DNA of 64,000 bases from Kalaharituber pfeilii (lineage: Eukaryota > Ascomycota > Pezizomycetes > Pezizales > Pezizaceae), in NCBI GenBank assembly GCA_015179045.1, contig WHUZ01000058.1, positions 248,001 to 312,000 on the forward strand. The letters run 5' to 3'. Positions 8,570 to 58,378 of this stretch are shown here, piece after piece (position 1 is the first letter of the stretch; the number at the start of each line of letters is the position of its first letter). A program made the position numbers and the translations under genes. Below the pieces are notes generated by a model that saw only the letters and a list, made by a program, of their open reading frames with translations, searched no databases and was not told the origin of the DNA.

Positions 8570-8627
8570 TTTTTTTTTTTTTTTATTTCACGTGACCCCG
8601 CTTGCAGCTGTTCGCCATGGCAGGGCT
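8570..8627 (-). mobile_element. 58-bp tail B retrocopy with 12-bp TSD
   Basis: Poly(T), ATTTCACGTGACCCCG, then the antisense tail B hairpin ending GCCATGGCAGGGCT. It is bounded by perfect copies of ACTTCCAGACAC at 8558-8569 and 8628-8639. It contains nothing but a 3' tail and poly(A), inserted by target-primed reverse transcription. Confidence 0.88.
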
Positions 8628-8639
8628 ACTTCCAGACAC

Positions 8640-11000
8640 ATATCCGGCCTTCCATTGTCAGGACGCAATTTCTGTTACTGTATTGTCAGGATGAGAGGTT
8701 AACTTTACTACCACACGATGAGCATGATGCTGCAACTCACCTTGCTGCCATGCTGCATCAATGATGCCATGCGAGATGTATTCTGCCATATACGAGAGAT
8801 TACCCTTGCCACCACGCGATGAGCATGATGCTAAAACTCACCTTGCTGCCATGCTGCGTGAATGCTGCCACTCTGCATGAACGTTGCCACACGGGATGTA
8901 TTCTGCTATAGATGAGAGTTTAGCCTCGCCACTATGCGATTTCCATCATACCCTAACCTGCCTTGCTGCCATGGTACGCTGATGCTGTCATGCTACGGGG
9001 CATGCTGCCATAACACGAGAATGTTACCATACTGCATGAATGCTGCGGTATTCGAGAACTTAGAATTATCACAGGCACGATAGGTACAATACCAGGACTC
9101 AATTGCTACTATGCTAAAGTACTCATGTTCTGCCATGCTGTTGAGGATCAAGCAGCAGGATTCAAGCTGTTGACCTGCCATCCAGAAGTTAGCAATCAGC
9201 AGCATGCGATGCGTGACTGAATAGACTCATGTATACTTACCTGCCGAATCCCTTTTTTGCTTTGGACAGTGATTTCTGTTATTCATTCCTGTTAGCGATG
9301 AAAAGAGATGAAAGGCTATCTGCTGACCTGTTAACCAGTCATTTATTGTCAAGTAGTTTGCTGTTTTGCAATACCTCTGTTGTGGTGGTAGATGTTTTCA
9401 TGAGCAGGAGACAGAAAAAGGGAGAGCATAACAGTGATACTAGAGAAGTCCCTTAGATTTCTCTTACATGTCAACCTCCTACTGGGCGCGGCTGAGGCAG
9501 GTAATATCGGAAATACTAGAGGCCTGTGCACTACGGCAACTGCCGATTATGCATTCGCCGTTTCCCAGCAGCTCTCCAGAGTTCACGTAGGCCTAACACA
9601 GTCTTGAACGAGACTACGGCCTAACAAGCAATTTAACATATAGTTCCACTACTACGACCCTCATTCCTGGTCTATGTATGTTGATTGAAGCCTTGCATTG
9701 ACATGATAGAAATTGTGCAAGCTTTACCACTGAATGACCAGAAGTGAGATAGATTACTATAACAAGTAATTTCCCACTCTACTCACATGTGAGTGGCCGT
9801 ACTATCAGGGGGATGCACAGACCGTGGCGCTGGTAAAAGTAACTCCAACCAAGCCTTCTGGGCTTGCCGGTAGTACTCGCTCGCTCCAGCCGCGCGCAGT
9901 AGGAGGCTGACACTTCGGAGGAATCAGAGCGACTCCTCTACTATCACTGTTATCCTCTCCCTCATTCTGGCTCCTGCTCATGAAAACAACTACCGCTGGC
10001 ACAGAGGTATTGCAAAACACCAAACTACTTGACAATAAATGACTGGATAACAGGTAAGCAGATAGCCTTTCATCTCTTTTCATGGCTAATAAGACTGAAT
10101 TACAGAAATCACTGTCCAAAGCAAAAAAGGGATTCAGCAGGTGAGTGTACTTGAGTCCATTCGCTCACGCGTCGCGCGCTGCTGATTGCTAACTTCTCGT
10201 GGGCAGCAGCTCGACAACTTAACATCTCCACAGCTCGAAAACTCGACAGCATGGCAGCATTCGCGCAGTGTTTTTTATTCACGCAGCATTGCAGCAAGGA
10301 GGATTATGGTATCATGTTCATCGTGTGGTGGCAAGGCTGACCTCTCGCATATGGCAGAATACATGCCGCATGGCAGTATTCGCGCAGCATGGCGGCAAGG
10401 TGAGTTGTAGCATCATGCTCATCACGTGGTAGTAAAGCTAACCTCTCCCATATGGCCGGATCCGCTCAGCATGGTGGCATCCGACGCACTATAGCAGCAT
10501 TCGCGCAGCATGGTAGCATGCGCGTAGCATAACAGCATCGGCACAGCATGGCAGCAAAGTGGGTTATGATATCATATTTATCGCGTGGTGGCAATGCTAA
10601 CCTCTCGCATGAGGCAGCCCTCGACGCAGCATGGCAGCATTCAACGCAGCATGGCAGCCTGCGACGCAGTATGGTAGCATTTGCGTGGCATCGCACATAG
10701 GCGTAGCATAGCAGGCCCTCCGGTGTAGATCCATTGATATATTGGCATGTATATACAATGAATATATCCTTTAAACGAGTAATTAAATTGGATCTGGGCA
10801 TAGAAAGGCTCAGTCCCCCCCCTACCATATAGTATTGCAATTGCATCCTGACAGTATAGTAATACAATTGCATCCTGACGGCACAGTAATGTAATTGTGC
10901 CCTGGGGGTATAGAAGTCCACCTGTGTCCTGGCAGAACAGTAGTGTAGTTGCGTCCTGATAATAGTAGTTCAAATATGGTTCTTGACACATAAGCTCAAT
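8640..11000. repeat. Large foldback (inverted repeat) with tandem-repeat arms
   Basis: The left arm (about 8640-9560) is inverted relative to the right arm (about 9820-11000) around a spacer of about 250 bp. The inner parts match closely: 9241-9510 against the reverse complement of 9880-10143, both holding TTGCTTTGGACAGTGATTTC and GTCATTTATTGTCAAGTAGT. The outer parts consist of degenerate short units of the GCTGCCATGCTGC / GCAGCATGGCAGC kind. The outermost parts share CAGGATG / CATCCTGA motifs. No transposase is visible. This fits a foldback-type transposon; hairpin-forming DNA or a dsRNA source are alternatives. Confidence 0.7.
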
Positions 11001-11608
11001 AGCTGTATCCTAGCGTTGACCCAACTTTAATGGTGTCAGGACGCCCATGATGCAAAAAAGACAGAAATATACTAAACCATTCTGGGACGCACCTATATAG
11101 CTTCTGGACGCACTTTCTCTTTCCTGATGTATATATATCCTCTGCCAACCCTTTGTCAGTACTTCAATCCATTTGAAAAATATTTCTCTAGGCATGTATT
11201 TCTATCCCATAGCTATACAAAGCCTCTATACGTCTTTCTTATAGAGCAATACCTCAATACTGTGATGTACTTAAGTAAGCAAAAATGTACTCTTTGACAT
11301 ATTAGTAACTTTCTACACATTAGTCTGATAGTTACAAGCCTTGGTATACTTGTCTGGCATAAGCAATAAAGTATAAATTGAGATGCAAAGGCCTTGAGTA
11401 ATCCCATTCACACATGGTCACTCGAAAGTATATGGTAGCACATGAGTGGATATATGCCCGAGTATACCACCCCTCATGTGCTATAAACTGGGGGGGGAAA
11501 GTATGGAAAATAATCTACTATATTCTCTCATGCTCTGGCTTTACTTTAAGCCCACTTGAGAGTCATTTGCATTCACAGTAGCTCTGTACATAGGTTAAGG
11601 AGTTTGAT

Positions 11609-11677
11609 AGTCCCTGCCATAGGCTGGTAGCCTGCATGCGGGGTTACGTGAATTTAATGAAAAGAAGAAAAAAAAGT
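11609..11677 (+). mobile_element. 69-bp tail B retrocopy with 8-bp TSD
   Basis: Flanked by AGTTTGAT at 11601-11608 and 11678-11685. This copy has the best hairpin of the family: the outer stem CCCTGC pairs with GCGGGG and the inner stem AGGCT pairs with AGCCT across a GGT loop. An A-rich tail follows GTTACGTGAATT. It interrupts the right inverted end of the element 4211-11724. Confidence 0.8.
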
Positions 11678-11848
11678 AGTTTGATCGGTTTCCCGGTGAT
11701 GATCGGTTTCTAGGTGAAGCACTCCACTTACCAATTGGACGACGTGATCTTTGTTCCTCATGTCATGAATATGCCGCACTGAATGCCTGGAAGGCCATAT
11801 CGGCCGGTTACGACTATATAGCACAGTTTGAGCACTCCTAACCCTCCC

Positions 11849-11883
11849 TCGCCATAGCCCTCAGGGCGGCATGCGAGTGCTGA

Positions 11884-11916
<33 letters not shown>
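11849..11916 (+). mobile_element. 68-bp tail A retrocopy
   Basis: Tail A hairpin (TCGCCATAGCCC, AGGGCGGCATGCGA) then GTGCTGATAT and a long A-run. Flanks CTAACCCTCCC (11838-11848) and CTAATCCTCCC (11917-11927) are a target duplication with one mismatch. It lies in duplication copy 1; copy 2 lacks it. Confidence 0.78.
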
Positions 11917-12094: not shown

Positions 12095-12127
12095 ATGCGA
12101 TTAATGAAATAAAAAAAAAAAAAAAAA
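12095..12127 (+). mobile_element. 33-bp tail A retrocopy with 13-bp TSD
   Basis: Contains only ATGCGATTAATGAAAT plus A-run, between perfect ACTTTCCCGCTTA copies at 12082-12094 and 12128-12140. It belongs to the ATCGC/GCGAT subfamily. Only about 16 non-tail bases were copied. Confidence 0.85.
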
Positions 12128-14875: not shown

Positions 14876-14932
14876 GTATCTCGCCGTAGCCCCCAGGGTG
14901 GCATCCGAGTAATGATTTAAAAAAAAAAAAAA
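14876..14932 (+). mobile_element. 57-bp tail A retrocopy with 10-bp TSD
   Basis: Hairpin TCTCGCCGTAGCCCC / GGTGGCATCCGAG then TAATGATTT and A-run, between TAGTCACACC at 14866-14875 and 14933-14942. Duplication copy 2 has the uninterrupted target (CCAGTCATGCCATGATAGCG near 34899). Confidence 0.85.
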
Positions 14933-16804: not shown

Positions 16805-16846
16805 TTTTTTTTTTTTTTTTTTATATCATTACTCGCATGCCGCCTA
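16805..16846 (-). mobile_element. 42-bp tail A retrocopy with 11-bp TSD
   Basis: Consists of T-run then ATATCATTACTCGCATGCCG, between GAAGCATCTCT at 16794-16804 and 16847-16857. Only half of the hairpin was copied. Confidence 0.88.
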
Positions 16847-17263: not shown

Positions 17264-17514
17264 GCCTGTGACCACTGACTAGTGCCTCGTTGTATAAACC
17301 CGAACCAAGATATCGTGTCACTGAAGGTCAAGGAGGACTACAACAAAACTATTGAAATGCTATGTACCGGCTAGCGCGAAGCTAACAGACTCTCGTCATA
17401 GGCCCTGCGGCGGTGCACGAGTAATGGTAACAAATAAATAAATAAATAAAAAGATAACAGACCGATTCCTGGCCTGTAGGTAGTCCGCACATAGGGGAAG
17501 ATCAAGCACACTCT

Positions 17515-17561
17515 TTTTAATTTCACGTGACCCCGCGTGCAGCTGTTCGCCATGGCAGGGT
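17515..17561 (-). mobile_element. 47-bp tail B retrocopy with 14-bp TSD
   Basis: Short T-run, AATTTCACGTGACCCCGC, then the antisense hairpin ending CATGGCAGGGT. Perfect ATCAAGCACACTCT at 17501-17514 and 17562-17575. Confidence 0.9.
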
Positions 17562-17650: not shown

Positions 17651-17753
17651 AAGCCTGCCTCCGGGCTTTGAGGGTTTAGACCCAGGGGCCCCGCCATGGC
17701 GAACAGCTGCACGCGGGGTCATGTGAAATAAAAAAAAAAAAAAAAAAAAGTCA
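17651..17753 (+). mobile_element. 103-bp tail B element, longest copy
   Basis: Flanked by TACATTTTC at 17642-17650 and 17754-17762. Besides the hairpin and A-run it holds about 45 bp of upstream sequence (GCCTCCGGGCTTTGAGGG, CCCAGGGGCCCCGCC) shared with the copy at 43506. This is the furthest 5' that the family can be followed in the window. Confidence 0.75.
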
Positions 17754-17762
17754 TACATTTTC

Positions 17763-20160: not shown

Positions 20161-20752
20161 GAAAGACAAATAAAAGTAGATGGATAGGGCGCGGAACCTC
20201 TCCGGGCAGGCATGTCTACAAGGGACTGTATCATGCACTTTTGTAGCCCAGGCAGCGACAACAAATTTGGCATGCTTGGCGCTAAGGGCTCGGCGTCACA
20301 CTCCCTCTCCTCTGTACGTAGCCGACGCCGCCTTGATCACCACTTCTCCGGCCGCGCTTCGCTCCCCCACAGTCGCTTCTGCCTTCGCATATACCACCTC
20401 CGCCTCCCGTCCCTCGACAGCGAGTAACATGATTGGGAGGTAAGATGAGCCTCTCACGACAGCGACAGCGACAGCGCATCACTGAACTGAGAAAGGTCCT
20501 GCATAGGCTCCCCTCACCTCCACCACCCCCAACATAAATCGTCTACTCCCCCTTCAACATTTTATAACCCAGACGGCATTTTCGAGCCATATCGTGGAAA
20601 TTAGGCATAAGAGACGAATTGTGAAAGGAGATCTTCGAAGAAGTAAACAGTACTATGTTTTGAGAATTGAAATCACTGCTCAGTTGCTGGAAGAGTTATC
20701 CAGCCCTCGAAGTTTATCTATGAAGCGACCTTGCCCTTCCCTGTGCTCCAGA

Positions 20753-21301
20753 CGAAAAGGCAAAACGGCGTCAGCGCACCCGTACGCCTTCAAGCGAAGA
20801 CTTGATGACGCGGAGGCAGGGAAGATAGCCACCGCACCACCGGTCGAGACATCATCAAGACAAGCTGACGGCTCTTATGTCGCCACCACCACAACAAATC
20901 CATCAACCCCCACCCCCACCCCCACACCCGCATCAACCCCCGCGCCAACTCCCACTCCACCGCCCACGCCAAAGACCAAACCCCCTCACACCCGCAAAGC
21001 CAAATCCCCACCTCCGACCACTCACAACGCCAACACCACAAAGACCGGCATTGTAGTACACGGGATAGCCCTGAGAAGAGACCTCCGGAATGTCCGACGA
21101 TGGATGGAGGCAGCCAACCAGGACCTAGGAAGGATCACGGGGATCCGATGGCTAAGGAAAAAGCAGACTCTACTTGAGGAGGGAAAGAAGACAAGCTCGG
21201 TGGTGGTGTACCTGGATGAGGCGTCGGGGAGTGACAGGGTGAGACTGGGAGGAAGATGGCTCCGAGCAGAGCAGTATGACTGGGAAAGAGGCAGGAAGTG
21301 A
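20753..21301 (+). pseudogene. LINE ORF1 (gag-like) C-terminal part
   Basis: Open frame of 182 codons with no start of its own, because the 5' end was lost at insertion; the ATG at 20720 lies in flanking DNA. A Thr/Pro-rich linker (about residues 48-90) is followed by a conserved block GIVVHGIALRRDLRNVRRWM, ITGIRWLRKKQ, GKKTSSVVVYLDE and RVRLGGRWLRAEQYDWERGR up to the stop. The same block ends the copies at 25741 and 42060. It resembles the RNA-binding gag-like ORF1 of fungal LINEs; the function is inferred from position only. Confidence 0.75.
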
Positions 21302-21432
21302 AGGGCCCATTCCGTACTGAGCTCCACCCGCATCATTTACTAGCACCGCGGGCACTACATGTATTTAGCCGTTGATTCTTTTTCTTCTTTTAATAAAAAC
21401 CTCGCCATAGCCCATAGGGCGGCATGCGAGTA

Positions 21433-22167
21433 CAGTCTAACCTTGCTATACCGGACGAGTAAAAATCTGGCACTTCTTGTCCGGTATAGCAAGGTTCCGG
21501 TATAGAATAAAATGCTTGGCAACTGTAAAAAAGGGGTGGCAAAAATATGTATAGAAATTATTGGAGTAGGAAATAAACAAGTGCAGCAAACATTAACTCA
21601 ATCAAAGTCTATTCAACATGCATTGCTCTCACCACCTAGAAGAGGTCGAGCGTTACAAGCGCCTGCGAGTATTGATATAAAAAAAAAAAAAAAAAAAGAG
21701 CGTTACAAGCTCTTGGGGAGCATCAAATATGCAAGCATTGACTAGAGCCAAACATGCTACGCTGACTGTTTCTCTAAAAGCCTATCAATTCACACCAAAG
21801 AAGCAGCAAACTCTACAAGAATGTTCCAGCCTCCCAGCAGCAGCAGCGACAGCAGTGGTAGCAGCAATGGTGACAGCAGTGGCAGCATCGGTAGCAAGTG
21901 ATAGCAACAGCGGTGACAGCAGTGATGGCAGCAGCAGGAGTGGTAGTTAGCATTGACGGCAGCAGAGTGGTAAAGTGGGGTAGTCTAAGATGTATTAGTA
22001 TTAGCGCGTCCGGTATAGCAATTATTATTTGTATGGAGACAGGGGGGTACTTGTCTAGAGATCTCTGTCCGGTCCGGTAATGTTAGCGCGTCCGGTATAG
22101 CAAGGGCGATTTGTATGGGAAACGATTCTCCAAATTAGAGGCCATCCGGTATAGCAAGGTTAGACTG
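21433..22167. mobile_element. Pogo/Tigger-like MITE, 735 bp
   Basis: Ends CAGTCTAACCTTGCTATACC and its inverse, with TA duplicated (21431-21432 and 22168-22169). CCGGTATAGCAA motifs recur inside near both ends. No transposase. A Ser/Gly-type trinucleotide-like repeat (CAGCAGCAGCGACAGCAG) lies at 21836-21950. A 37-bp LINE tail is nested at 21661. Ends of this kind with a TA duplication are typical of pogo/Tigger elements. Confidence 0.85.
21661..21697 (+). mobile_element. 37-bp tail A retrocopy with 13-bp TSD
   Basis: GCCTGCGAGTATTGATAT plus A-run between perfect GAGCGTTACAAGC copies (21648-21660 and 21698-21710). It sits inside a MITE that sits inside a LINE tail. Confidence 0.9.
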
Positions 22168-22412: not shown

Positions 22413-23392
22413 TTTTTTTTTTTTTTTTTTTTTTTCATTAATCGCATGCCGCCCTATGGGCTATGGCGATGTTTAGTTACAGTGGTATGATGGAAAAATG
22501 ATAATGAAAGAGTAAAGAAAAATCGATAATGAAAGAGTAAAGAAAATTGAACCGTCCTATTCCTCCCCGCCCATTCCAATATTTCCGCCATGTTTGTGTC
22601 CTTATCTAACTGTCTTATCACGTCTGCTCCTCTTGCGGTTTTCCTGTTCCATGCCGAGCAGCTACTCTTTATGTGATCCCAGGTCTCCGGCGCTTCGCCG
22701 CACCATCTGCACTCCGGGGAGGTGGCCTTTCCAATCCTGAATCTCCATTCCTTCAGTCCCTTATTGCCCAATATCCCTGCCATTGTGGCCAGATACCGGC
22801 GTTTGTCGACCTTTTGGAGTGGGCGGTAGTTCAGTCCGGCTTGGTTTCTTTCGGCAGCTCTGGATGCTTTGTATTCTTGTCTTATTCCTGGCTCTGTCAC
22901 TATCTCGTCTTCGCTTCGCAAGGCAGTGCCAACTTTCGCCGCTTGGTCCGCCCCCGTGTTGCCTTGTATTCCTTTATGGCTCTTGACCCACATGATCGCA
23001 AGGTCTAGATCACCCCTGGCTGCCCTTTCTTCCCAACGTCTCCTCACCTCGCTGGCGGCTCCGTCGGGTGTGGGGTCGCCTCTCGCTATCTTTTGTAGTT
23101 TTGCGATCGCCGTCTGTGAGTCGGTGATTACCATCAGCTCGCCTGGCACTTGTAGGGCCTTGCTTATCGCTATGAGCTCTCCATCGTTTACCGTGCTTCT
23201 CTTCCCCAGGTAGTAAGACTGTGCAGTGGATCGATGGTATACTCCCGCTCCCGTTGTGTCCTCTATCCTGCTCCCGTCCGTATACACCCCTTCCCATCCT
23301 TCGTCTGTCTCTCTTTCTATGATAGCTTCCCATTCGTCCTGCTCAGGTCGCTCGGTTGTGTGGGGAACGTGTGTAGCGGTAGCGGATTCCGG
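22413..23392 (-). mobile_element. 980-bp truncated RNase H LINE, 15-bp TSD
   Basis: Perfect TGTTGGGAACCCCTC at 22398-22412 and 23393-23407. Poly(T), ATCGC/GCGAT hairpin, then the ORF2 end. Best preserved RNase H copy of the window, so probably young. Confidence 0.92.
22454..23391 (-). pseudogene. LINE ORF2 end with complete RNase H and zinc knuckle
   Basis: One uninterrupted frame covers the whole insertion from its 5' truncation. RNase H motifs in order: VYTDGSRIEDTTGAGVY (first aspartate), STVNDGELIAI (glutamate), LMVITDSQTAI (second aspartate), IMWVKSHKGIQGNTGADQAA (His region and last aspartate). Then CRWCGEAPETWDHIKSSC, a C-x2-C-x7-H-x4-C knuckle, and a hydrophobic readthrough tail. In the parent LINE this domain removes the RNA template during cDNA synthesis. 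No start codon or RT domain survives, so it is a fragment despite the open frame. Confidence 0.88.
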
Positions 23393-23981: not shown

Positions 23982-24927
23982 ATGGATGCCTTTACGATCT
24001 CTACCGCAATTGCAGGATTTCTGTCTCTCGCACTCGAAATTGGAAAAATCCTAAGGGAATATACCGGGGAAGTCAAATCTGCCCCACAGGATGCTCAGAC
24101 CTTGCTAGCAGAGATAACTGCATTGAGTCACGTCCTTTAGCAGCTAATTAACTTTTTACGAAAGGATGATATCAAGGCAAATTTTCAGGAGACTTCAGCT
24201 CTATGCTCTGTAATTAAGATCTGTGAGGATAGAGTCAAACTTTTGCACTCAAAGCTTATGAAGTTCCAAAGTTCTGGCGGTTTCAAAGACCGACTCAGAT
24301 GGCCCTTTCATAAGCAAGACTGCCTTGATGCAGCCTCCACATTGCATCACTGCACGCAAGTAATTGAATTTTCGCTTACAATAGGGTGGTAGTTCTATCA
24401 TATATGTACCGTGGTTCTGAGATTAGTAACTAATAATGTGAATAGTGAGCTACTTTCCAAAACCTCGCAAGAGGTGAAGGTTATTCTATTGGATCAGCAA
24501 AGGCAAATGGACTCTATTTTGCGATTGTTCAAGGATATACCACCCTAGATGGCCAAAATGAGGGCTACGCTAGACATCATTTTGACTTACGTATCAGACA
24601 TTGATAAGTTGGTTATCGACATGCAGGAAATCAAGACTGGGGTCCAGGGTTTACAGCGGAATATAGATGGTACGATGTTCATGTTTCGTCGTTCACTTTA
24701 GAACCGTGCTGTTGACTTCCAGCTTGCCATTATATTAGCTGAGTATACAGAAAAGCTCCTCGCTTGGTTGTCCCCGCTTGAACCGCAGAAAAGACATCAG
24801 GACATCAAGGCTACTCGTATAGAGAACACAGGAAACTGGATTCTCCATAGCAGCCAATTTCAGTCATGGGTGAAGGGCGAAACGAGCGATCGCAGCGGTG
24901 AGGTTCTGGGTTGCTATGGCGAGCCAG
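23982..24927 (+). pseudogene. NLR pseudogene part 1: N-terminal domain to Walker A
   Basis: Starts MDAFTISTAIAGFLSLALEI, the usual opening of the N-terminal domain of fungal STAND proteins, and keeps that family's pattern: a helical region with LINFLRKDD and TQVIEFSLTI, then WLSPLEPQKRHQDI and ENTGNWIL just before the NTPase. A 60-nt intron fits at 24386-24445 (GTGGTA...ACTAAT...TAG), joining FSLTIG to ELLSKTS. In-frame TAG stops at 24138, 24546 and 24699 all fit CAG to TAG, as RIP would make. The part ends at GCYGEP, in the middle of the P-loop, where the transposon 24928-26886 is inserted. The protein would have been a cytosolic self/non-self receptor; this copy is dead. Confidence 0.85.
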
Positions 24928-25439
24928 CGGGATGACTCGGGACAGGTACTTTTTACCTGTCCGCTCAGGGACAGGTAGTTCCTTGTACGGTAAGCGGATC
25001 GCCAGTGGCGTGCGCTAATATGCAGAGTTTTCAAGGATTACGATTCAGAGGTACCTAGGCTAAGATATTATGTACTCGAGTACAATACCTGAACAACTAA
25101 ATAGGTGCATTGGAAGATACATGGGACCTTGATGCAACAAGAATAACATCCTGCGTAGCTTGCGTATCCTCAAGCTCAACTACACCTAAAGAGCCTTCCA
25201 TATGGCACTTTCTAGTATTTCTTGCAGCAGCTGTTCATTCAGCCAACTCAGCAGAAGTCATAGCATGCGCTTTAGCTTTTCCCTTGGTCTTTTTCTGACG
25301 AAATTAATTTAAAGCTAGTTGTACAAATTGCTGGATAATTGGCTGAGTACCATGACTAACAGGTGTGCTAGTAAACATTCGTTGCATGTGGCTGGTATGA
25401 GTATGCTCCAAACATGCAAAAATCTTTGCCTGCTCACCA

Positions 25440-25489
25440 TTTTTTTTTTCATAATATTGATCGCTTGCTGCCCATGGGGCTATGGCGAT
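25440..25489 (-). mobile_element. 50-bp tail A retrocopy
   Basis: T-run, CATAATATTGATCGCTTGC, GGGGCTATGGCGAT. Flanks GCCTGCTCACCA (25428-25439) and GCCTTCTCACCA (25490-25501), one mismatch in 12. Confidence 0.8.
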
Positions 25490-25580
25490 GCCTTCTCACC
25501 AGTAAGGGTGCCATATAACTGTTCTTGGTCATATAATGACCGTAGAAGGAGATGTCAGCCTTGATTAGTATATTGGTCTT

Positions 25581-26039
25581 TTTTTTTTTTTTTTTCTCAA
25601 TACTCGCGTGCCGCCCTATGGGCTATGGCGAGGGTCTTTATTAAAGTAAAGGAAAAATAAAATGTCGCTACATGAAACCCACGACTCTCACTAGTATTAT
25701 GGGTGGATGATCCAAGCCGATGCAGGGGGACGTCTTTTGCCTATTTCCGTCCTCTGTCTGACTCGTACCGGCAGGCTCTCAACAATCTTCCTCCTAGTCT
25801 CACCCGGTCTACTTCCATTGTGTCCTCCAGGTATACAACTACCGAACTTGTCTTTTTCCCTTCCTCCCTCAGTATCGTCTTGTTCCTCAGCCATCTGATC
25901 CCCGTAATCTTTCCTATGTCTTTATTGTCTGCTTCCATCCATCTCCGGACATTCCCGAGGTCCTTCCTCAGGGCTATCCCATGTACTACGATGCCTTCTT
26001 TGGGAGTGGTGGTACCGGGGTTGGATGGGTGTGTCGGGG
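25581..26039 (-). mobile_element. 459-bp ORF1-only LINE, 14-bp TSD
   Basis: Perfect AGTATATTGGTCTT at 25567-25580 and 26040-26053. Poly(T), tail A hairpin, 3' UTR with the GTATTATGGGTG stretch also seen near 250, then ORF1. No ORF2 between ORF1 and the tail. Nested in the MULE-like element 24928-26886. Confidence 0.88.
25741..26039 (-). pseudogene. LINE ORF1 (gag-like) C-terminus
   Basis: Reads GIVVHGIALRKDLGNVRRWM, ITGIRWLRNK, GKKTSSVVVYLED and RVRLGGRLLRACRYESDRGR to the stop at 25741. Sequence upstream of 26039 in the same frame belongs to the target element, not to the LINE. About 70% identical by eye to the copy at 20753. Confidence 0.75.
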
Positions 26040-26895
26040 AGTATATTGGTCTTGTGGCCGCTATTGAGGTATTGTAATAGGTAGATCTGTAGGTACTTCT
26101 CTGCCGGTCATTGCCTATTTTATGGGTGCTATTGGGCCTTTGATTTGCCAGCATGGATGGAGAAGCTAAAGAGGAATCGTTGATATTTATAAACTACAAC
26201 TATAAATCTAGTAACTAATGCATAGTCTTGAAAATAAATAATACATCATTAAAAGTATTCTGCTCTTTAGTAATTGGAGTACTTCAATGAAGTACAGAAA
26301 TATCATATCTATCACCCATATTGCCTATTTAGATATAAAAGGATATGCATAGGGGATAGGTATTGCTAAGCAGAATAAGACCGAGATGATAGGTAATGTT
26401 AAATGTTAGGTAATGCCGAGTGAGAGTGGGCATGGTAAGCTATTGAATAAGTAGAAAATATATGCTAGAACAGTTTTCAAGAGCCTTATATACTATCAAA
26501 ACTCTTCAGCCAAGTATTTACAAAATTGCGGTAACAGCTTTTTTTTTATTATTCGGCCATTTAGGACGCAGCAACAACACAAGTACATAATAAATGGTCT
26601 GTATTACTGGTAGACCTAATGGATGTATGGTCAACTTCGGAGGTAGTGGCAGCTGGCTTTGTTGAAAGACCACGCGTCCTGGCTATCAAGTGGTAATTGG
26701 TAAATGATACCGCGACAGCGGAGGCGAAAGAGAAAAGCTGTGAGTGGGTAGCAACCATATCTTCGATATACATGAAGTTGTACTCGGGTACATGCGAGCT
26801 CACCACCCTTGAAAACTCTGCATATTAGCGCACGCCACTGGCGATCCGCTTACCGTACAAGGAACTACCTGTCCGGAGTCATCCCGGCGAGCCAG

Positions 26896-29156
26896 GGGCC
26901 GGCAAGACTGTGTTGGCGTACGTATTGCTAGTACTTGTACCATCACTCTGTTCAGGGCACCTAGCGTTAACAACAGTATATAAAGCTCCATTCTCATCGA
27001 CTATGTATCCTCCATTGCGAATCGACCTGCAACAGGCATCACATATCTGTACTGTGACTATCGAGACCGCAAGGAACAGTGCTTAGTACATATTCTTGGA
27101 AGTTTCGTGAAGCAGTTGGTCTGGCAGCTCATATCATCAGGGGTTCCGTTGCCCGAACTCGTTCACCAGTCGTTTAAATCTGGTCTACACTCAAGACAAT
27201 GCCTTGAGCTTGACACCGCAAAAACTGATTCTTAAGAGTCTCTTGCAAGAGCTTGACCATACCTTCATTATAATGGATGCAATGGACGAACTGCAGGACC
27301 AGACACGAATAGATTTCCTCAAGATGACTCAAGAAATCCTCATCTTGCAAGCCCCCAGGACCAATAACCAACCGATGAATGCAAATAACTCGAGTCTGGT
27401 TCGGTTATGTTTCACCGCACGTCCACATGTTCAAGACCAGGTCACACTGCGTCTTGCTGTTCCAGTGAAAACATTAACAATTGTGGCCCAGGAGGATGAC
27501 ATTCAGAAATACCTTATGCACCGCATTGACAGTGACCCTTATCAAGATGCTATGAATACCGCACTGAAGGAAGAAATGCTGAACACACTGCCGAAAAGGT
27601 CAGAGGGAATGTATGCACTACCCAAGTCAAACATGTAATATACAATATGGCTCACTTTTGATGCGTAGGTTTTTGCTCCCAGCATTACATATCGAGGTGA
27701 TCCTAGACAAATTGACAGTGTCCAAGCGGCGATCTGCCCTTCGCAACTTGCCTCCAGGTCTTTATGCAGCTTATGATGGAACTATAGCTAGGATTCGAGA
27801 ATCACAATGTCGTAGCGAACTCGGAATGAAGGCACTCATGTGGACCTACCTAGCTGAACGACCGTTGAAGGTTATAGAGCTTCGCCATGCACTCTCAGTG
27901 GAGGATGAGGCTGAGGCTCTGGATGCTGAGAACATTCCCTCCGAAAATACAGTACTTGAGTGCTGCTGTGGATTAATGACAGTGGACGAGGAGACATCAA
28001 CTATTCGTCTTGTGCACTACACGCTTCAGGAGTATTTCAAGTCACGGCACGAGCAACACTTTCCGACTGGCCACAGCTCACTTGCAAGGTCATGTCTTAC
28101 CTATCTGAGCCTTATCACGTTATCTGCCACAGTCGCAGGTTCAGGATTGGCTCAGTTGAGTGAAGATTACCCTTTGTTTGATTACGCAGCTCGTCAATGG
28201 GGCCATCATGCGCGAAGGCAGTGTGATGAAACTCTTCACGCACTTGCCATTGCATTGTTCCAACAGGAGAACTTCTCTCAATCTCTCCCCCTAGTGCATT
28301 GTAACCTGCATGTTCCACGCTCTTTTTGCGCATTGATGAGCCTTCATGTCATTGCTTATTTCGGAGTTGAAAGCATATTTCAGACCTTAGTTCAAACTTC
28401 AGACCCAACCTGCGAGTCCAGCTGTAGCAACACAGCCTTGATGTATGCTGCTCATAGAGGCCATGAGGCTATAGTCCGCTTGTTGCTGGGCCGAGCAGAG
28501 GTAGACGTCAATATACGCAATAAATGGAACTCAACGCCACTCATGAAAGCAGCTGCTGGAGGACATGTAGCCGTAGTCCGTGTGCTGCTGGAGCGAGCAG
28601 ATGTGGATATCAATATACAGGATAGATGGGGCTCAACAGCACTCAGGGAAGCATCTATGAATGGACATGATGCTATAATCCGCTTGCTGCTGCATAGGCC
28701 GGATGTCGATATTAATACGCAGGATAAAAAGGGGAGAACGCCACTGTTCGAAGCAGCTAGTCGTGGTCATGAGACTGTCGTCAGTTTGCTGTTAGGGCGA
28801 GAGGGCGTGGATGCAAATGTACAGGATAGAGGGGGTTCCACACCACTCCTCGAAGCAGCTATCAACGGGCACGAGGCTGTAGTCTGCTTGCTGCTAAAGC
28901 GAGCTGACATGAATATCAATATACAGGATAAATCGGGCTCAACACCACTCCAGCAAGCAGCCGCTGACGGCGCTGAAGCTGTAGTCCGCTTGCTTCTGGT
29001 GCGAGCAGATGTGGATGTCAATTTGCAGGACAAAAAGGGGAGAACACCACTCTTCAAAGCAGCTACTCGTGGTGCTGAGGCCATAGTCCGCTTGCTGCTG
29101 GAGCGAGCGGATGTGGATATCAATCTACAGGATGACGTGGGCTCAACACCCCTCTT
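26896..29156 (+). pseudogene. NLR pseudogene part 2: NACHT NTPase and first ankyrin repeats
   Basis: Begins with the second half of the P-loop, GAGKTVLA. A 68-nt intron fits at 26918-26985 (GTACGT...TTAACAAC...AAG) and restores LASILIDYVSS, then GITYLYCDYRDRKEQ. A frameshift lies between about 27190 and 27235: one frame ends TAKTDS-stop at 27233, the next carries LLQELDHTFIIMDAMDEL, the Walker B motif. A 58-nt intron fits at 27611-27668 (GTATGC...GCTCAC...TAG), joining EGM to FLLPALHIE. Then LPPGLYAAYDGTIARI and the winged-helix region (LVHYTLQEYF), and from about 28430 eight ankyrin repeats of 34 residues (GSTPL..AA..GHEAVVRLLL). Stopped by the second transposon. Usual order for fungal NACHT-ANK receptors. 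Confidence 0.9.
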
Positions 29157-29305
29157 GCAAGCGGCCGGAATGTCTCTGTCCAGTCACTTTCTGACTGGAC
29201 AGAAGCCGGGATAAGTGACGCTAAACTATACAAGCGACCGCTAATCTACTAGTACATACAACCCATACTCGGAGTGCAGGGATAAATTGAAATCACGAAT
29301 TCTCG

Positions 29306-29346
29306 TTTTTTTTTTTTTTTTTCTTTTTTTTTAATACCATTACTCA
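29306..29346 (-). mobile_element. 41-bp tail A retrocopy
   Basis: T-rich run then AATACCATTACTCA only. Flanks ACGAATTCTCG (29295-29305) and ACGAATTCTTG (29347-29357), one mismatch. Confidence 0.8.
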
Positions 29347-29929: not shown

Positions 29930-30612
29930 ATGACGCTTGATACCACCCAGAGTTCAATATCTGCACCACTGATGACACCAAACCTCCTTCCTGATATCCA
30001 AGGCCAGCATAGCTTCGTTCAGACAGCATACAATCTCCCATTTCATTGCACAACCTTCTCAACTAGCAGCACATCAAGTTCTACAGTTTCAACATACAGT
30101 CCAAGAGGTACAAAATTGTGGAAAACTCCTAGTTTTCCAACCACTATTTTACCTTCTCCAGAACCAAACTTCCGGATACAGTTTCAAACCGCATCTAGCA
30201 CATCGACCTCACGTAATCCAAAACGCATTAATTCTTTTTTTATTTTATTTTTTTTTTTTTTTTTTATATCATTTATCGCTTGCAACGCATTAATTCAGCT
30301 CATGGACCTACTGGGGCTGAGGTGGCTGAAACGGAATTAGCTCAACGTCAAGCTATTCAAGAGCGCAATGATATTGCGGACAGTCATACTCAGGATGTTA
30401 TTGTCACGGTCCTGCACTCATGTAAAAAGGTGGATGAAGCACTGGAGTTAGCTGAAGAGATACCAGAGTACGATGATGTAGACAATTACACTCAGGATGT
30501 TATTGTCCTACACTTACATAGAAAGATGGATGAAGCGCGGGAGTTAGCTGAAGAAATACCAGAGTACGATGATGCAGATGTTATTGTTCTACACTCATGC
30601 AGGACCTTGGAA
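29930..30612 (+). pseudogene. Unknown ORF of TIR element 2, split by a 49-bp retrocopy
   Basis: The 5' part (29930-30234) is Ser/Thr/Pro-rich; the 3' part (30284-30612) ends in DVIVLHSCRTLE. Removing the mini-element 30235-30283 and one target copy joins SRNPKRIN to SAHGPTGAEVAE in one frame. The end holds two copies of LAEEIPEYDD in a unit with VDEALELAEEIPEYDDVDN, acidic and probably helical. Not recognised as a transposase domain. It could be the C-terminus of the lost transposase. Confidence 0.45.
30235..30283 (-). mobile_element. 49-bp tail A retrocopy with 13-bp TSD
   Basis: T-rich run, ATATCATTTATCGCTTGC, between perfect AACGCATTAATTC copies (30222-30234 and 30284-30296). Breaks the ORF of TIR element 2. 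Confidence 0.9.
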
Positions 30613-33815: not shown

Positions 33816-33849
33816 TTTTTTTTTATATATATATATCAATACTCACATG
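33816..33849 (-). mobile_element. 34-bp tail A retrocopy with 13-bp TSD
   Basis: T-run, ATATATATATATCAATACTC, ACATG, between TATAAGTTCCTTC at 33803-33815 and 33850-33862. Duplication copy 1 has the empty site (AAGTTCTTTCACATTTA near 13720). Confidence 0.88.
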
Positions 33850-35198: not shown

Positions 35199-35251
35199 GC
35201 GCCCTGCCATGGCGAACAGCTGCAAGCGGGGTAACGTGAGAGAAAAAAAAA
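35199..35251 (+). mobile_element. 53-bp tail B retrocopy with 11-bp TSD
   Basis: GCGCCCTGCCATGGCGAAC, then AAGCGGGGTAACGTGAGAG and A-run, between AGGCCAATCAG at 35188-35198 and 35252-35262. It sits within the GGCC array of the 4.7-kb element, whose own unit may contribute to the match. Confidence 0.78.
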
Positions 35252-36273: not shown

Positions 36274-36289
36274 TTCAAACTACGCTCCT

Positions 36290-37677: not shown

Positions 37678-37689
37678 AGAAGAAAGCTT

Positions 37690-38515
37690 TTTTTATTTGT
37701 TTTTTTAAATATCATTACTCGCATGCCACCCTATGGGCTATGGCGAGATTAGTTACAAACCATAGAATATACTAAGTAAGGAAAAATCTCATTCCCCGTA
37801 AAGAAATATATGGAAATTCTCTCCGTCCCCGTACGTCCTTTATATGTCCGCCCAATCCTTATATTCCCAGGGGATCCTTGTCCTTATTCTCGGGTGGCTC
37901 GATCAGATCTTTCATTCCTCCCGGCCATCTTTTTTTCTACACCTGCATCTGTTGAGTACATGTGCAGTGGTTTCCTCCTCCTTCCCACACCACCGGCATT
38001 CCGAGCTGTCGGCTTTGCCCATAAGGTGTTTCCATTTTCTCAGCCCCTTGCCCCCAGTATGCCTGCCAGTATTGAGACTCTCCGTCCCAGTCGTGTGAGG
38101 GGTCTGTAGTTGAGATGCAATCGGTTCCTCTCTGTGGCTCTCCAGGTCCTTGATAGTTGTCGTATCCCTGCTTCTGTGACGACTTCATCCTGATATTGGA
38201 GGTGTGTTCCTATTTTGGTGGCTCTGTCTGCCTCTGTGTTTCCCTTGACCCACGCCATAGTGGAGTCTACCCCGTCACCTCCCGGGGTGAGTCCTAGTCC
38301 CGTTTCTCACTCTTAAGGCTGAGACGGCCTTATATACCCTTTCAGGGCCACTATGTGGATTGCGCCTTTGCACCTTAAGCCTTCGCTAAGCTTCCACTCC
38401 CTTCAGAACCAACTGCCGATAACTACACCCGCCGAGATGCAGTCCATGCCCTCATCTATGCCCAGTGGCATTTTGACCCTTAGGCCCCCCACAGGACTCG
38501 AAGCACAGGTTTCAC
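37690..38515 (-). mobile_element. 826-bp truncated LINE inside an AT-rich block, 12-bp TSD
   Basis: Perfect AGAAGAAAGCTT at 37678-37689 and 38516-38527. Tail A hairpin on the minus strand, then zinc-knuckle and RNase H end: VKGNTEADRATKIGTHLQYQ read from 38258 down. Normal base composition against very AT-rich flanks, so it arrived after the flanks were mutated. Beyond about 38270 the sequence is not recognisable as RNase H. Confidence 0.87.
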
Positions 38516-40307: not shown

Positions 40308-40366
40308 GCCCTGCCATGGCGAACAGCCGCAAGCGGGGTCATGTGAAATTAAAAAAGAAAAAAAAA
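40308..40366 (+). mobile_element. 59-bp tail B retrocopy with 12-bp TSD
   Basis: GCCCTGCCATGGCGAACAGC, AAGCGGGGTCATGTGAAAT and A-run between ATGTCTGCATGC at 40296-40307 and 40367-40378. Confidence 0.9.
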
Positions 40367-41572: not shown

Positions 41573-41616
41573 GCGGCATGCGATTAATGAAATAAAAAAA
41601 AAAAAAAAAAAAAAAA
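41573..41616 (+). mobile_element. 44-bp tail A retrocopy, 12-bp TSD
   Basis: GCGGCATGCGATTAATGAAA plus A-run between TATGTACCTGTA at 41561-41572 and 41617-41628. First of two insertions at this spot. Confidence 0.9.
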
Positions 41617-41628: not shown

Positions 41629-41688
41629 ATACCCCCATGGCCACGTGCTACAAGCGGGGTTATGTGATTTAAAGAAAAAAAAAAAAAA
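41629..41688 (+). mobile_element. 60-bp tail B retrocopy at the same target
   Basis: ATACCCCCATGGCCACGTG, CAAGCGGGGTTATGTGATT and A-run between TATGTACCTGTA at 41617-41628 and 41689-41700. With the neighbour it makes three copies of one target sequence. Confidence 0.9.
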
Positions 41689-41915: not shown

Positions 41916-43460
41916 TTTTTTTTTTTTTTTTTTTTTATTTCATTACTCGCATGCCGCCCTATGGGCTATGGCGAGGGTTTAATTTAACTAAAACAAAATC
42001 AAAACGAATACGGTCTTAAATACATGATGCCCGCGGTCTTTAGAAGGTGTTGCGGGGAGAGCGGTCAGCATCCTGAATCTTCATCTCCGTCCTCTTTCAG
42101 GCTCATACCGACACGCCTTGAGCCACTTCCCTCCGAGTCGCACCTTGTCCTTGTCTAGGTCTTCCTCCAAGTATACCACTATGGAACTTGTCTTCTTCCC
42201 CTCTCCGACCAAAATGTCCTTTTTCCTTAGCCATCTGATGCTGGTGATCTTTGGCATGTCTTTATTGTCCTCGGACAGCCATCTTCTGACGTTGCCCAGT
42301 TCCCTTCTCAGGGCAACGCCATGTATGACTAGTCCGGATTTGGCTTTCGTCGTCGTCGGGGTCGGCGGGGTAGCCTTTTTGGTGTCTTTTGGCGGGGTGC
42401 TACGGGGTTGTGGCTTTGGGTTGGCTGGGGCTGGTGCCGGAGCCGGGTTCGTGGGGTGGGGGTGGCTGGAGCTGATGCTGCAGCCGGGGCGGGTGAATTC
42501 GGGACCGGGGAAGGTGTCGTTTTTCCTGTCTTCCTCTTCCTCCTTGTGGGTGTCTTAGCCGGGGGAGGGGGTGTCTTCTTTCTTCCGGTCTTCTGTGGTG
42601 TTGTGGCGCGCTGTGGTGGAGTGTCTATGTGCCGTATGGGGCTGAAGCCCGACTTTGGTGGCGTAGGTGGCGGTGGCGGCGGTGTTGGCAATTGCGGAGG
42701 TGTGTCTAAACAAACGATGGGGCTGAGGCCCATCGGCGGTGCTGGCGGTGCTGACGGCTCGGTGTCTATGTTCTGGATGGGGCTGAGCCCCAGTGTCTGT
42801 GGTGGCGTTGGTGGTGTCGGCTCGGTGTCTATGTTCTGGATGGGGCTGAGCCCCAGTGTCTGTGGCGGTGGTGCGACTTGGAGCCCTGGGGGAATCTGGC
42901 CGGGTTGAAGGCCGAGGATCTCCTTCGTGTCGACGTTGCCGTCCCCTAGGAACCGTATTATCAGGGTCGCTCCTTTCCCCGGGGACGTCGTGTCTTTGGC
43001 TTTTTCCTTCCACATCTGTTCGACTATCTCGTACCAGCCGATGCCGTGTTTCCTCAGTTCCCCCCAAATATTGCGCTGCGTTGGGGGCGGAGTGGTGACC
43101 GCCGCTGGGGTGGGCGGTGGGGGGGTACCTTCTGTGTCTTTTTGCCCTTCGGTGGCATTTTTCTATTGGTTGTCTAGCCTTATCCGCGGTTGTCTATTGG
43201 CTCTTGGCGCCTCGACGGTGGGGTGGCAACGGTGGTGGTGAGCTGAGAGATCCTCAAGAATTCCCCCTAGCTGAGAGATCCTCAAGAATTCCCCCCTCGG
43301 GGGAAAAACGTAGTTCCGAGTGTTTGAGGATAAAAACTAGATCAAAAGACTCAGCTCGCTGAGCGCTTTCGATCTATGTGATTTTCAGCGGGGGGGACGT
43401 TGTGGTTGTGGAGTCGCTTCCAAACGCTCGTCCTGAGGTGGTTGCTGTGTTGACGTCTCC
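41916..43460 (-). mobile_element. 1545-bp ORF1-only LINE, 14-bp TSD
   Basis: Perfect GTCCAAATCATAGA at 41902-41915 and 43461-43474. From 5' to 3' (minus strand): a leader of about 300 bp, ORF1, short 3' UTR, tail A hairpin, poly(A). The leader contains a 25-bp direct repeat (GAATTCTTGAGGATCTCTCA twice near 43230-43290). It is the longest copy and may be full length for an ORF1-only element. Confidence 0.9.
42060..43158 (-). pseudogene. LINE ORF1 (gag-like), frameshifted
   Basis: Start MPPKGKKTQKVPPHRPPQ at 43158. A frameshift near 43080 leads to NIWGELRKHGIGWYEIVEQM and GATLIIRFLGDGNVDTKEIL. The middle is a Pro-rich array with about four degenerate units around LGLSPIQNIDTEP. After a basic stretch (KTPTRRKRKTGKTTP) and a second frameshift near 42330 it ends with the conserved block seen at 20753 and 25741 (SIRWLRKK, GKKTSS, GKWLKACRYEPERGR). 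Compared with the fragments elsewhere this shows the N-terminal domain. Likely an RNA-binding gag-like protein; dead here. Confidence 0.7.
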
Positions 43461-43505: not shown

Positions 43506-43597
43506 ATGCTTGCCTCTGAGCATTGAGGGCCTCTGCCCAGGGGCCCTGCCATGGCGAACAGCTGCAAGCGGAGTTATGTGATAAAAAAAAAAGAAAA
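43506..43597 (+). mobile_element. 92-bp tail B element with 12-bp TSD
   Basis: Between ACCTGATAACCT at 43494-43505 and 43598-43609. Upstream part GCCTCTGAGCATTGAGGG and CCCAGGGGCCCTGCC match the long copy at 17651. It lies 45 bp from the end of the ORF1 LINE. Confidence 0.88.
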
Positions 43598-45635: not shown

Positions 45636-45669
45636 TTTTTTTTTTTTTTATTTCATTAATCGCATGCCG
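45636..45669 (-). mobile_element. 34-bp tail A retrocopy with 15-bp TSD
   Basis: T-run, ATTTCATTAATCGCATGCCG, between CCCATTGTATGTATT at 45621-45635 and 45670-45684. Confidence 0.9.
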
Positions 45670-46124: not shown

Positions 46125-46160
46125 CTCATCATAGCCCAAAGGGCGGCATACGAGTGATGA

Positions 46161-46193
<33 letters not shown>
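46125..46193 (+). mobile_element. 69-bp tail A retrocopy with 14-bp TSD
   Basis: CTCATCATAGCCC, AAAGGGCGGCATACGAG, TGATGATAT and A-run between TGTCCGCCTTTCCG at 46111-46124 and 46194-46207. It inserted, in the opposite sense, within the zinc-knuckle coding sequence of another tail A LINE. Confidence 0.92.
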
Positions 46194-54399: not shown

Positions 54400-54427
54400 T
54401 TTTTATTATATCATTACTCGCGTGCAT
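54400..54427 (-). mobile_element. 28-bp tail A retrocopy with 11-bp TSD
   Basis: Only TTTTTATTATATCATTACTC plus GCGTGCAT between AGAACGGGCTT at 54389-54399 and 54428-54438. The smallest insertion in the window. Confidence 0.87.
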
Positions 54428-54539: not shown

Positions 54540-54600
54540 ATTCTTTTTTATATATATATATCACAACCCCGCTTGCAGCTGTTCGCCATGGCAGGGCCTA
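54540..54600 (-). mobile_element. 61-bp tail B retrocopy with 11-bp TSD
   Basis: T-run, ATATATATATATCACAACCC, antisense hairpin ending GGCAGGGCCTA, between TACGGAATAGC at 54529-54539 and 54601-54611. Confidence 0.88.
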
Positions 54601-55069: not shown

Positions 55070-55534
55070 GACTAGGACAAAGGGTTTCGACACTGGCGGG
55101 CATACTAGGGGGCAAAGGCCCAAGACGATGGAGAGACGAGATAGGTTTTTTCTTTTTGTTTTTTTTTCACGTGACCCCGCATGCAGCTATTCGCCAAGGC
55201 AGGACAGACGAGATAGGTAAAGCAGACAGCCCGGAGTGCCGGTGGTGCGGGGAAGAGGAGACCATCCCCCACGTACTAGCATGGTGCAAGGTTTGGAAGA
55301 AGAAATGGCGAGGAGGGGAGGCGGACCTGCTCGGACCCCCGAAAGGAGACCAGAAGGACAAAGACGCATTGGTGGACATTCTAGAATGGGCGGGGCGATA
55401 GATGGACTTGGACGATCGGGTAGCCTAGTTTTCATTAGATGTTAAGCAGTTGATCCTGTTATTTCTCCTCTCACCTCTCATCTCTTATGTAGTTAAACCT
55501 CGCCATAGCCCTTGGGGCAGCACTCGAGTACTGA

Positions 55535-55566: not shown

Positions 55567-55568
<2 letters not shown>

Positions 55569-57007: not shown

Positions 57008-57052
57008 GTAATCCTGTGTTTCCACTTCCGGCCACCTCCTAGTTCCTTTCTC

Positions 57053-57232
57053 TGGATTGGGCGGGGCGATAGACTTTTCTCATCTCACATCGTTGTTCTC
57101 CTTCCCTTTAGGCAGACATTAAACAATTTTCTCACATCTCCTATCTACTCACATTTCTTTTCATTCATGTAATTAGAACATCGCCATAGCCCATAGGGCG
57201 GCACGCGATCAATGATATATATAAAAAAAAAA
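57053..57232 (+). mobile_element. 180-bp truncated LINE with 13-bp TSD
   Basis: TAGTTCCTTTCTC at 57040-57052 and 57233-57245. Begins at the last ORF2 codons (GGATTGGGCGGGGCGATAG) and runs to the ATCGC/GCGAT tail with TCAATGATATATATAA. Confidence 0.9.
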
Positions 57233-58245
57233 TAGTTCCTTTCTCCCAGACTCCTAGTTAGCACCTGTATACGGCCTCCCGAACTTTATTTTGGCCTATT
57301 CGTCTGACATACCCTATTCCCCCTTTTGGGCACTCCTCTTGCCCTGCGTTTTCTGCAGTATCCCGCCCCCGTCACCGCCTCCTGCGAGTAATGCAAGCAA
57401 GACCCCACTCCTGCTGCCTCGCCTGATCTCTCTTCGCTTTCTTTTACACCTGGCCTTCCACCCAGGTAGCCCCCCAATTAAAAGGCCGTTTTCCATTGTC
57501 GTCTCCACTGCCTCTCTGCATACCCTTGCTGCACCTCCCGATATCAGCCTGCTTTCTGTCACCTTTTGTCAGGTTGACATCACCAGCAGTTTATCCTCCT
57601 CTAAATCCCAAATTGCTTGAGCAACACTAGCATCTCTGCATCATTCACAGTCGCTCACTTCCCTAGATGTAAATTACCCTAACGTGATCCTCCTCCTAAC
57701 CCACTACCAGCCATATACATTCGGTACCTTCCAACCTTCGTATGTCCCACTGATATTGCCTGTTCTTACACCCGCTTTGGATGCAGCAGGTGGGGGAGAT
57801 GGTATAATTGAGCTTGGAATTTGCACTTTGTTGCCCAGATGTCCCTATTAACAGTCTTTGAGCACTTTTCTTATCTATCCCTCTTCCTCTTTCCCTGGAT
57901 CTCAATGCCCTTACCTGTGCTCTTGCTCTTTTGCTGGCTTCATCCCGGCCAATGTTGCCTCTTTTGGGGTGGCTCAACATCAGGATAGTGATCATCTGAG
58001 CAATTTGATGTGTTCTTGTAAATCAATCATCTTTGATTTAGTCGGCGTCCAACCTATTTTCAGGAAATCTAAACGGTTCAGGAAGATACAATATTATAAT
58101 AGAAATGTCAGGAAATCTAACGCCCAATGAGTGAACCGACTAGGGAACGATGTATCCCTAGAATTTTACTAGAACAAATTTTGAAAGGCCTCCTTGTCTT
58201 GAACAAACATGGCATCTCTGGGAGAGCATTTGTTATGTTTTTGTT

Positions 58246-58276
58246 TTTTTTTTTAATTATTATTACTCATATGTCG
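58246..58276 (-). mobile_element. Decayed tail A mini-element
   Basis: T-run, AATTATTATTACTCATATGT. No clear duplication. Confidence 0.4.
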
Positions 58277-58330
58277 CTATGAAGGGTAACAACGGTGCCA
58301 AAAGCAATACTAAGCGGAAAGCATCAGAGC

Positions 58331-58378
58331 TTTTTTTTTCTTTTTTTTTTTTATCGCGTATCGTAGCCCCGCTTGGGC
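58331..58378 (-). mobile_element. 48-bp mini retrocopy, tail B-like
   Basis: T-rich run, ATCGCGTATCGTAGCCCCGC, TTGGGC. Flanks AAGCATCAGAGC (58319-58330) and AAGCATCAAAGC (58379-58390), one mismatch. Confidence 0.65.

Follow-up and report, generated by a model that had tools for sequence, protein, structure and literature searches.

The question raised by this locus is how a long interspersed nuclear element (LINE) comes to leave insertions of only a few tens of base pairs. The window, that is, the whole stretch of DNA that was analysed, covers 64 kb (C315:248001-312000) of the genome of the Kalahari truffle Kalaharituber pfeilii (78.0 Mb, 360 contigs). It is repeat-rich, with LINE RNase H open reading frames (ORFs), AT-rich blocks and one ankyrin-repeat gene, and an initial annotation had reported in it more than 20 insertions reduced to a piece of LINE 3' tail with poly(A). 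We find that these short tail copies are real, separate insertions with target site duplications (TSDs). As to their length, we put at about 0.55 the probability that it is set mostly by the 5' end of the template: a trimmed RNA consisting of the terminal hairpin and tail would be copied to run-off.

Tail families and target site duplications

Two main LINE tail families, designated A and B, were recognized, each formed by an RNA hairpin followed by about 10 nt and then poly(A). Family A ends in CTCGCCATAGCCC-nnn-GGGCGGCAYGCGAG, TAATGATATT and poly(A), and family B in [G/A]CCCTGCCATGGCGAACAGCTRCAAGCGGGG, TYAYGTGAWWT and poly(A); a third tail type (CCCTGCCATAGGCTGGTAGCCTGTATGCGGGG) is, as judged by eye, a variant of family B. 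Genome-wide, the A tail gave 3,305 matches (1632+1673) with at most two mismatches, a shorter exact A pattern gave 267+250, and the B pattern 1,418 (691+727), compared to 0+0 for the reversed control in all three cases. The window is a hot spot for tail copies, with 47 fuzzy tails in its 64 kb versus 16 in 200 kb of contig C1.

The same tail sits after RNase H ORFs in longer copies, and the B tail at C32:46589 is preceded, at a distance of 1.6 kb, by a match to reverse transcriptase (C32:44276-45019). With the RVT_1 profile, 150 matches were scored among 1113 candidates, in open frames of up to 1290 aa. Because intact reverse-transcriptase frames of such length exist, recent LINE activity in this genome is plausible. 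These elements may belong to the Tad1 clade, with which an RNase H domain is compatible.

Two controls were used for the TSDs. In the first, carried out on the window and 20 unbiased 10-kb stretches of contig C1 with AT-rich sites excluded, a TSD score of at least 9 was reached by 31 of 76 tail-bearing A-runs, compared to 4 of 61 other A-runs (Fisher P = 3e-6); at a score of at least 12, the figures were 21/76 and 0/61 (P = 1e-6). One of the three non-tail A-runs listed at 10 or more is that of position 58331, a divergent tail. In the second control, 140 exact-pattern tails were compared with 420 constructs onto which a foreign downstream flank had been grafted: 70 tails versus 10 constructs scored at least 9, and 45 versus 1 at least 12. 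A score of 9 carries a background of about 2 to 7%. The concern, raised in the initial annotation, that flanking repeats might be no more frequent here than around random A-runs can thus be set aside in both controls.

All eight insertions that had been quoted as examples were found, with TSDs of 11 to 15 bp. They are family A copies at 12095..12127 (+, 33 bp, TSD ACTTTCCCGCTTA), 16806..16846 (-, 41 bp, AAGAGATGCTTC), 21661..21697 (+, 37 bp, GAGCGTTACAAGC), 29307..29346 (-, 40 bp, TSD with one mismatch), 30235..30283 (-, 49 bp, GAATTAATGCGTT), 33816..33849 (-, 34 bp, GAAGGAACTTATA), 45636..45669 (-, 34 bp, AATACATACAATGGG; given as 45640-45669 by a scan of A-runs made without the tail motif) and 54400..54427 (-, 28 bp, AAGCCCGTTCT). 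Seven of them were recovered by that motif-free scan, and 54400 by the tail-guided scan only. After removal of duplicates, the window holds 20 tail insertions of 28 to 103 bp with a TSD score of at least 9 (13 A, 7 B). Further copies are those at 11849, 11609 and 58331 (score 8 to 9, other scans), and at 17514 and 54540 (read by eye), so that 'more than 20' was a fair count. That LINE 3' tails, some of less than 40 bp, have inserted with TSDs is therefore borne out.

Over 95 short copies (L074, L084 and L131, with false or ambiguous TSDs, were removed), the TSD had a median length of 13 and mostly measured 9 to 15. For 14 of these 95, an insert-free paralogous site was present in the sampled DNA of the same genome, with an identity of at least 80% in five cases; for instance, L010:6870-6930 is matched by L013 with 90.5% identity over 201 bp. 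A looser run gave more such pairs (the copy at 11609 versus L006, and L051 versus L010). For the copy at 12095, no insert-free site was found, the whole-genome search matching its own site only.

Chance repeats or an assembly artefact around A-runs could in principle mimic this picture, and the background of 4/61 non-tail A-runs at a score of at least 9 is all that speaks for it. Against it stand the reversed-pattern, non-tail A-run and grafted-flank controls, the distinct TSDs from copy to copy, and the 14 insert-free paralogues. Chance repeats were rejected on the pattern scan with its reversed control and on both TSD controls, and we regard this explanation as almost certainly wrong.

Hairpins, lengths and 5' ends

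The predicted folding energy is -13.5 kcal/mol for the A hairpin and -15.4 kcal/mol for the B hairpin. The predicted B stem, of 7 bp, opens at the first inserted base of B copies, and a second predicted B stem, further upstream, opens with AAGCC. Covariation was analysed for family A, on the 88 of 94 distinct hairpins that are 30 nt long and with 500 shuffles, family B being studied by folding only. Among the A hairpins, 95.8% of cells are paired. Five pairs are changed on both sides (2.3 in shuffles, a value of five being reached in 7/500), and 28 cells are double-changed (4.1 in shuffles, reached in 0/500; at most 12 in slid versions of the structure). Further pair types were no more numerous than in shuffles (192/500). 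By these comparisons, a conserved predicted stem-loop is present near the 3' end of the tail.

Copy lengths were measured on 80 of 517 exact A places and 60 of 1418 B places, taken from the first 100 listed, on low-numbered contigs. This 140-tail sample retains duplicates: L074 and L075 have a common TSD, and so have L037, L051, L056 and L136, a single family A insertion (TSD AAGTATGTATCAC) which was amplified inside another repeat. TSDs with a score of at least 9 were found for 34 A and 36 B places. The lengths are bimodal. Family A has 25 copies of 42 to 81 bp and 9 of 136 to 389 bp; in family B, two copies measure 28 bp (false TSD), 29 measure 57 to 73 bp, two 106 to 107 bp and three 226 to 327 bp. 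The remaining 70 of the 140 contexts have no TSD at score 9 within 265 or 415 bp, many of them having LINE sequence upstream.

To describe the 5' ends, the first base of the stem, that is, the 5' foot of the terminal hairpin, was numbered 0. The window and loci L001 to L170 were pooled, and the TSD search was limited to 170 bp. Duplicates (same family and same first eight TSD bases) and starts beyond -60 were dropped, which left 98 of 111 rows, 53 of family B and 45 of family A.

Family B has two discrete 5' ends. Forty-three of the 53 copies start at -4 to +8, 35 of them within one base of the foot and 21 exactly at 0; eight others start at -31 to -40, which is the foot of the upstream hairpin AAGCCTGYCTCCGGGCTT. 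The last two are unreadable (L074, with its false TSD, and L084, in an ATT repeat). Where the start is above 0 (12 copies), the end of the TSD mostly equals the missing hairpin bases (for example, G or A before CCCTGC); a hairpin indel is present in three of them, and L010, for which an overlap of 8 bases is required, is the weakest case. One to four extra bases precede the foot in 10 of the 43 copies: in eight, they differ from the bases found upstream in long copies, and in two (G) they match.

In family A, 25 of 45 copies start at -5 to +1 of the foot, and 16 at positions 15 to 26, in the 3' half of the hairpin. All eight examples described above fall in this second group, and the initial annotation had thus picked the shorter of two classes. 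Two doubtful starts, at 8 and 12, lie in the 5' half; one copy starts at -11 (an event recurring in three further repeats) and one at -50. Within the A hairpin, starts are therefore distributed as 16 in the 3' half versus 2 doubtful ones in the 5' half (P = 0.0017 if even).

What sets the 5' end of short copies

We favour a model in which the LINE transcript would lose sequence from its 5' end, a 5'-3' exoribonuclease being the simplest agent, and this trimming would end at the 5' base of a hairpin, which the LINE reverse transcriptase may hold. The target DNA would then be nicked, poly(A) would serve for priming (target-primed reverse transcription, TPRT), and the hairpin would be copied until the template runs off. 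The product would contain one hairpin (about 39 nt plus A for family B) or, if trimming had halted earlier, two (about 75 to 80 nt plus A). Joining of the cDNA end to the target would generate the TSD. The shortest family A copies would come from a second process, namely stops in the 3' half of the hairpin. We infer the trimming, the exonuclease, the binding by the enzyme and the run-off from what was observed: the TSDs, the positions of 5' ends, the conservation of the hairpin and the insert-free paralogous sites.

Reverse transcriptase reads its template from 3' to 5' and meets the 3' arm of the hairpin first, so that stalling is expected there; the 16 versus 2 starts in family A fit this expectation. 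They also imply that the fold hinders the enzyme only as it enters, so that some other cause is required for a stop at the 5' foot. An end at that foot is not predicted by stalling. It is expected where a 5'-3' exonuclease halts, and a template starting there would yield a run-off copy. The use of two feet, and not one, fits trimming as well. Extra bases are expected when the enzyme reaches the end of its template, and those of eight B copies, being absent from the long-copy template, agree with run-off.

Several observations weigh against this model. The fold z-scores of six RNAs are modest, from -1.0 to -2.8, with two weaker than -1.4. Family A foot ends are ragged (-5 to +1), and, with 16/45 starts in the 3' half, they make the second process necessary. 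Starts in the 3' half are also seen in two B-like copies outside the counts (58331, and L105 without a TSD), and about 5 of the 46 family A contexts in which no TSD reached score 9 look similar (L057, L115, L116, L137, L142). The model was built on genome sequence sampled from the first contigs listed. Finally, length class and subtype are correlated, and this could reflect separate lineages in place of a single shared process.

The initial annotation had suggested an enzyme of low processivity that leaves an intact template within tens of bases. This agrees with the 16/45 family A copies, all eight examples included, whose start lies in the 3' half, where an enzyme blocked by structure would stop; the 5' ends as a whole do not show the smooth spread that it predicts. 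In family B they are quantised at two feet (51/53), and TSD-bearing copies extend up to at least 389 bp (9 A and 3 B longer copies among the 70 with a TSD). A smooth decay as sole cause is rejected by this clustering, and low processivity as the main determinant of length appears improbable. The enzyme might instead hold the terminal hairpin and let go at its last stem base, once its own binding site has been copied. The commonest end in family B, exactly at the first stem base (21/53), is what such a release would produce, and binding of a LINE protein to a tail stem-loop is reported for zebrafish LINEs (PMC4176376). The second peak at the next hairpin foot (8/53) is not predicted by release, however, nor are the long copies, and we consider it just as improbable.

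The dependence of length on subtype bears on a third explanation, a self-sustaining miniature short interspersed nuclear element (SINE), in which hairpin-only copies would be transcribed and copied again, the fixed 5' end being the start of the transcript. The B subtype CTAC..TCACG counts 673 hairpins (at most one mismatch), of which only 87 have CAGGGG directly upstream, compared to 251 with CAGGGA among the 663 hairpins of subtype CTGC..TTACG. In a hand count of the first 100 exact places of each, the exact upstream bases were present in 12 (CTAC) versus 42 (CTGC) (P = 2e-6). Moreover, the commonest short sequence in the sampled DNA occurs 11 times among 24 short copies and 0 times among 13 long ones, and the fixed ends are SINE-like. 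With two fixed ends, both of them at hairpin feet, two start sites would nevertheless be required. A known promoter head is also missing: the hairpin copies contain LINE tail only, without the RNA polymerase III promoter head that a SINE takes from tRNA, 5S or 7SL, and searches of the window gave 0 tRNAs and 0 Rfam matches at gathering score.

The hairpin-only subtype also has LINE-length relatives, as judged from upstream sequence. Of the 41 exact CTAC copies with CAGGGG, at least 9 extend further into GAT..., the upstream sequence of the long copy L089. The two-hairpin unit has 135+112 genome matches (at most three mismatches), 63 of them exact, and 21 exact units have GAT upstream as in L089. 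For two CTAC copies examined with their upstream bases, L169 and L170, the 5' end lies at the second hairpin foot. Because such LINE-length relatives exist, the case for a self-standing hairpin lineage is weakened. A hairpin-only lineage without LINE-length relatives, hinted at by the sampled DNA, is likewise weakened by the genome counts. The 'deliberate minimal parasite' of the initial annotation is not established either, since longer copies of the main hairpin-only subtype are found as well, some of LINE length. On balance, a miniature SINE seems unlikely. There is a slightly smaller chance that the unit of hairpin plus poly(A), of about 42 nt, is itself a replicator that carries everything required by the LINE enzyme: it would be transcribed from flanking promoters, cut by RNA decay at the hairpin foot, and inserted again. 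If so, RNA degradation would be its maturation step, and the unit would be among the smallest known mobile elements.

Copies of LINEs truncated at the 5' end by TPRT have the same LINE 3' end, poly(A), TSDs and variable 5' loss; the copies described here have shrunk to the terminal hairpin and their 5' ends cluster at hairpin feet, whereas truncated members measure 100 to 1,000 bp according to a review (PMC3747384). A similar hairpin close to the 3' end, kept by covariation, is found in the stringent-type tails of zebrafish ZfL2-1 and ZfL2-2 and eel UnaL2, although loops, stems and organism differ and the K. pfeilii tail ends in poly(A); binding of its hairpin may be supposed by analogy with zebrafish. 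For R2, shortening of the template from its 5' end before cDNA synthesis, with stable folds as barriers to 5'-3' exonucleases, is proposed as a working model (PMC11331408). That work on PRINT holds the same idea of 5' template loss leading to truncated insertions, but in an engineered system in human cells, whereas the 5' ends described here form a pattern that arose naturally, in the genome of a fungus.

Fungal SINEs with a LINE tail (Mg-SINE with MgL, SINE2-1_BG with Tad1-24_BG) are likewise short and non-coding, with a LINE tail and fixed 5' ends, but the lists in PMC3747384 give both SINEs a tRNA-type promoter, and none was found in the K. pfeilii window. Truncated small nuclear RNA pseudogenes moved by L1 have in common with our copies a truncation that is non-random relative to RNA structure; there, however, the truncations are at the 3' side (PMC4476161), in single-stranded segments, and are explained by events on the template, while here 5' ends lie at stem bases. 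In a limited literature search, mostly of listings, LINE copies with ends quantised at the feet of tail hairpins were not encountered.

The cause of 5' truncation in most LINE copies is a long-standing question, the rival answers being that the enzyme falls off or that the template is damaged. In K. pfeilii, each of the two causes would leave its own mark in the same genome: ends within the 3' half of a hairpin in one case, ends at its 5' foot in the other. With a genome-wide map of such junctions, the question could be tested without any assay, and sites of RNA cleavage in living cells would be recorded. Units of 30 to 60 bp in such numbers are probably missed by repeat annotation.

Other insertions and features of the window

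Other family A copies of the window lie at 14876..14932 (+, 57 bp, TSD TAGTCACACC, start at -4), 25440..25488 (-, 49 bp, imperfect TSD, start at the foot), 46125..46193 (+, 69 bp, TGTCCGCCTTTCCG, start at the foot) and 11849..11916 (+, 68 bp, TSD score of only 8, start at the foot). A divergent copy of 42 bp at 3463..3504 (+, TTTCTTTAT) has a doubtful start in the 5' half. Family B hairpin copies are found at 8570..8627 (-, 58 bp, GTGTCTGGAAGT, one extra base before the foot), 35199..35251 (+, 53 bp, AGGCCAATCAG, two extra bases), 40308..40366 (+, 59 bp, ATGTCTGCATGC, start at the foot) and 55147..55201 (-, 55 bp, imperfect TSD). Two others were read by eye: 17514..17561 (-, about 48 bp, ATCAAGCACACTC, start at 0), whose A-run was too short for the scan behind the pooled 5'-end count and which is therefore not part of it, and 54540..54600 (-, about 61 bp, TACGGAATAGC).

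Two-hairpin copies of family B lie at 17651..17753 (+, 103 bp), starting at the foot of the second hairpin (AAGCC), and at 43506..43597 (+, 92 bp), starting at the foot of a variant second hairpin (ATGC..GCAT). The third tail type is represented by a copy of 65 bp at 11609..11673 (+, CCCTGCCATAGGCTGG.., TSD with one mismatch), which has an insert-free paralogue. The divergent B-like tail at 58331..58378 (-, 48 bp, TSD with one mismatch) has its 5' end in the 3' half and stands outside the pooled count.

As had been proposed, some copies interrupt other elements: that at 46125 lies inside a LINE RNase H region, and those at 41573 and 41631 inside another LINE tail. The first of the latter two (41573..41616, +, 44 bp) is a family A copy with TSD TATGTACCTGTA and a start in the 3' half. 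A further TATGTACCTGTA separates it from a family B copy at 41631..41682 (+, 48 to 52 bp, the A-rich edge of its TSD being ambiguous), which starts at the foot with an indel. Between 41561 and 41697, the identical 12-bp target is therefore present three times around two successive insertions of different families, and one nick site was thus probably used twice.

Longer elements with a family A tail are also present. A LINE copy of 980 bp with an RNase H domain occupies 22413..23392 (-, TSD GAGGGGTTCCCAACA), and an element of 1545 bp occupies 41916..43460 (-, TSD TCTATGATTTGGAC; ends deduced from the A-run and the length). The ORFs of the latter, and those of another element ending in a family A tail at 20507-21400 (+), match no Pfam family. 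The ORF ends (GIVVHGIALRRDL..) are alike in these two elements and in the ORF that precedes the B tail of L170; the two may perhaps be ORF1-like non-autonomous elements.

Two AT-rich blocks, at 6001-8000 (20.7% G+C) and 36001-38000 (22.4% G+C), fit what would be expected of repeat-induced point mutation. The stretches 24969-26874 and 29164-30756, in or beside the ankyrin-repeat gene region (24000-31300), are bounded by long inverted repeats (68 nt, 100%, and 67 nt, 99%, respectively) and resemble DNA transposons splitting the gene. A short element resembling a miniature inverted-repeat transposable element lies at 59661-60526, within inverted repeats of 46 nt (100%) and 246 nt (99%). A large inverted repeat spans 9175-10206, with arms of 320 nt that are 87% complementary and 392 nt between them.

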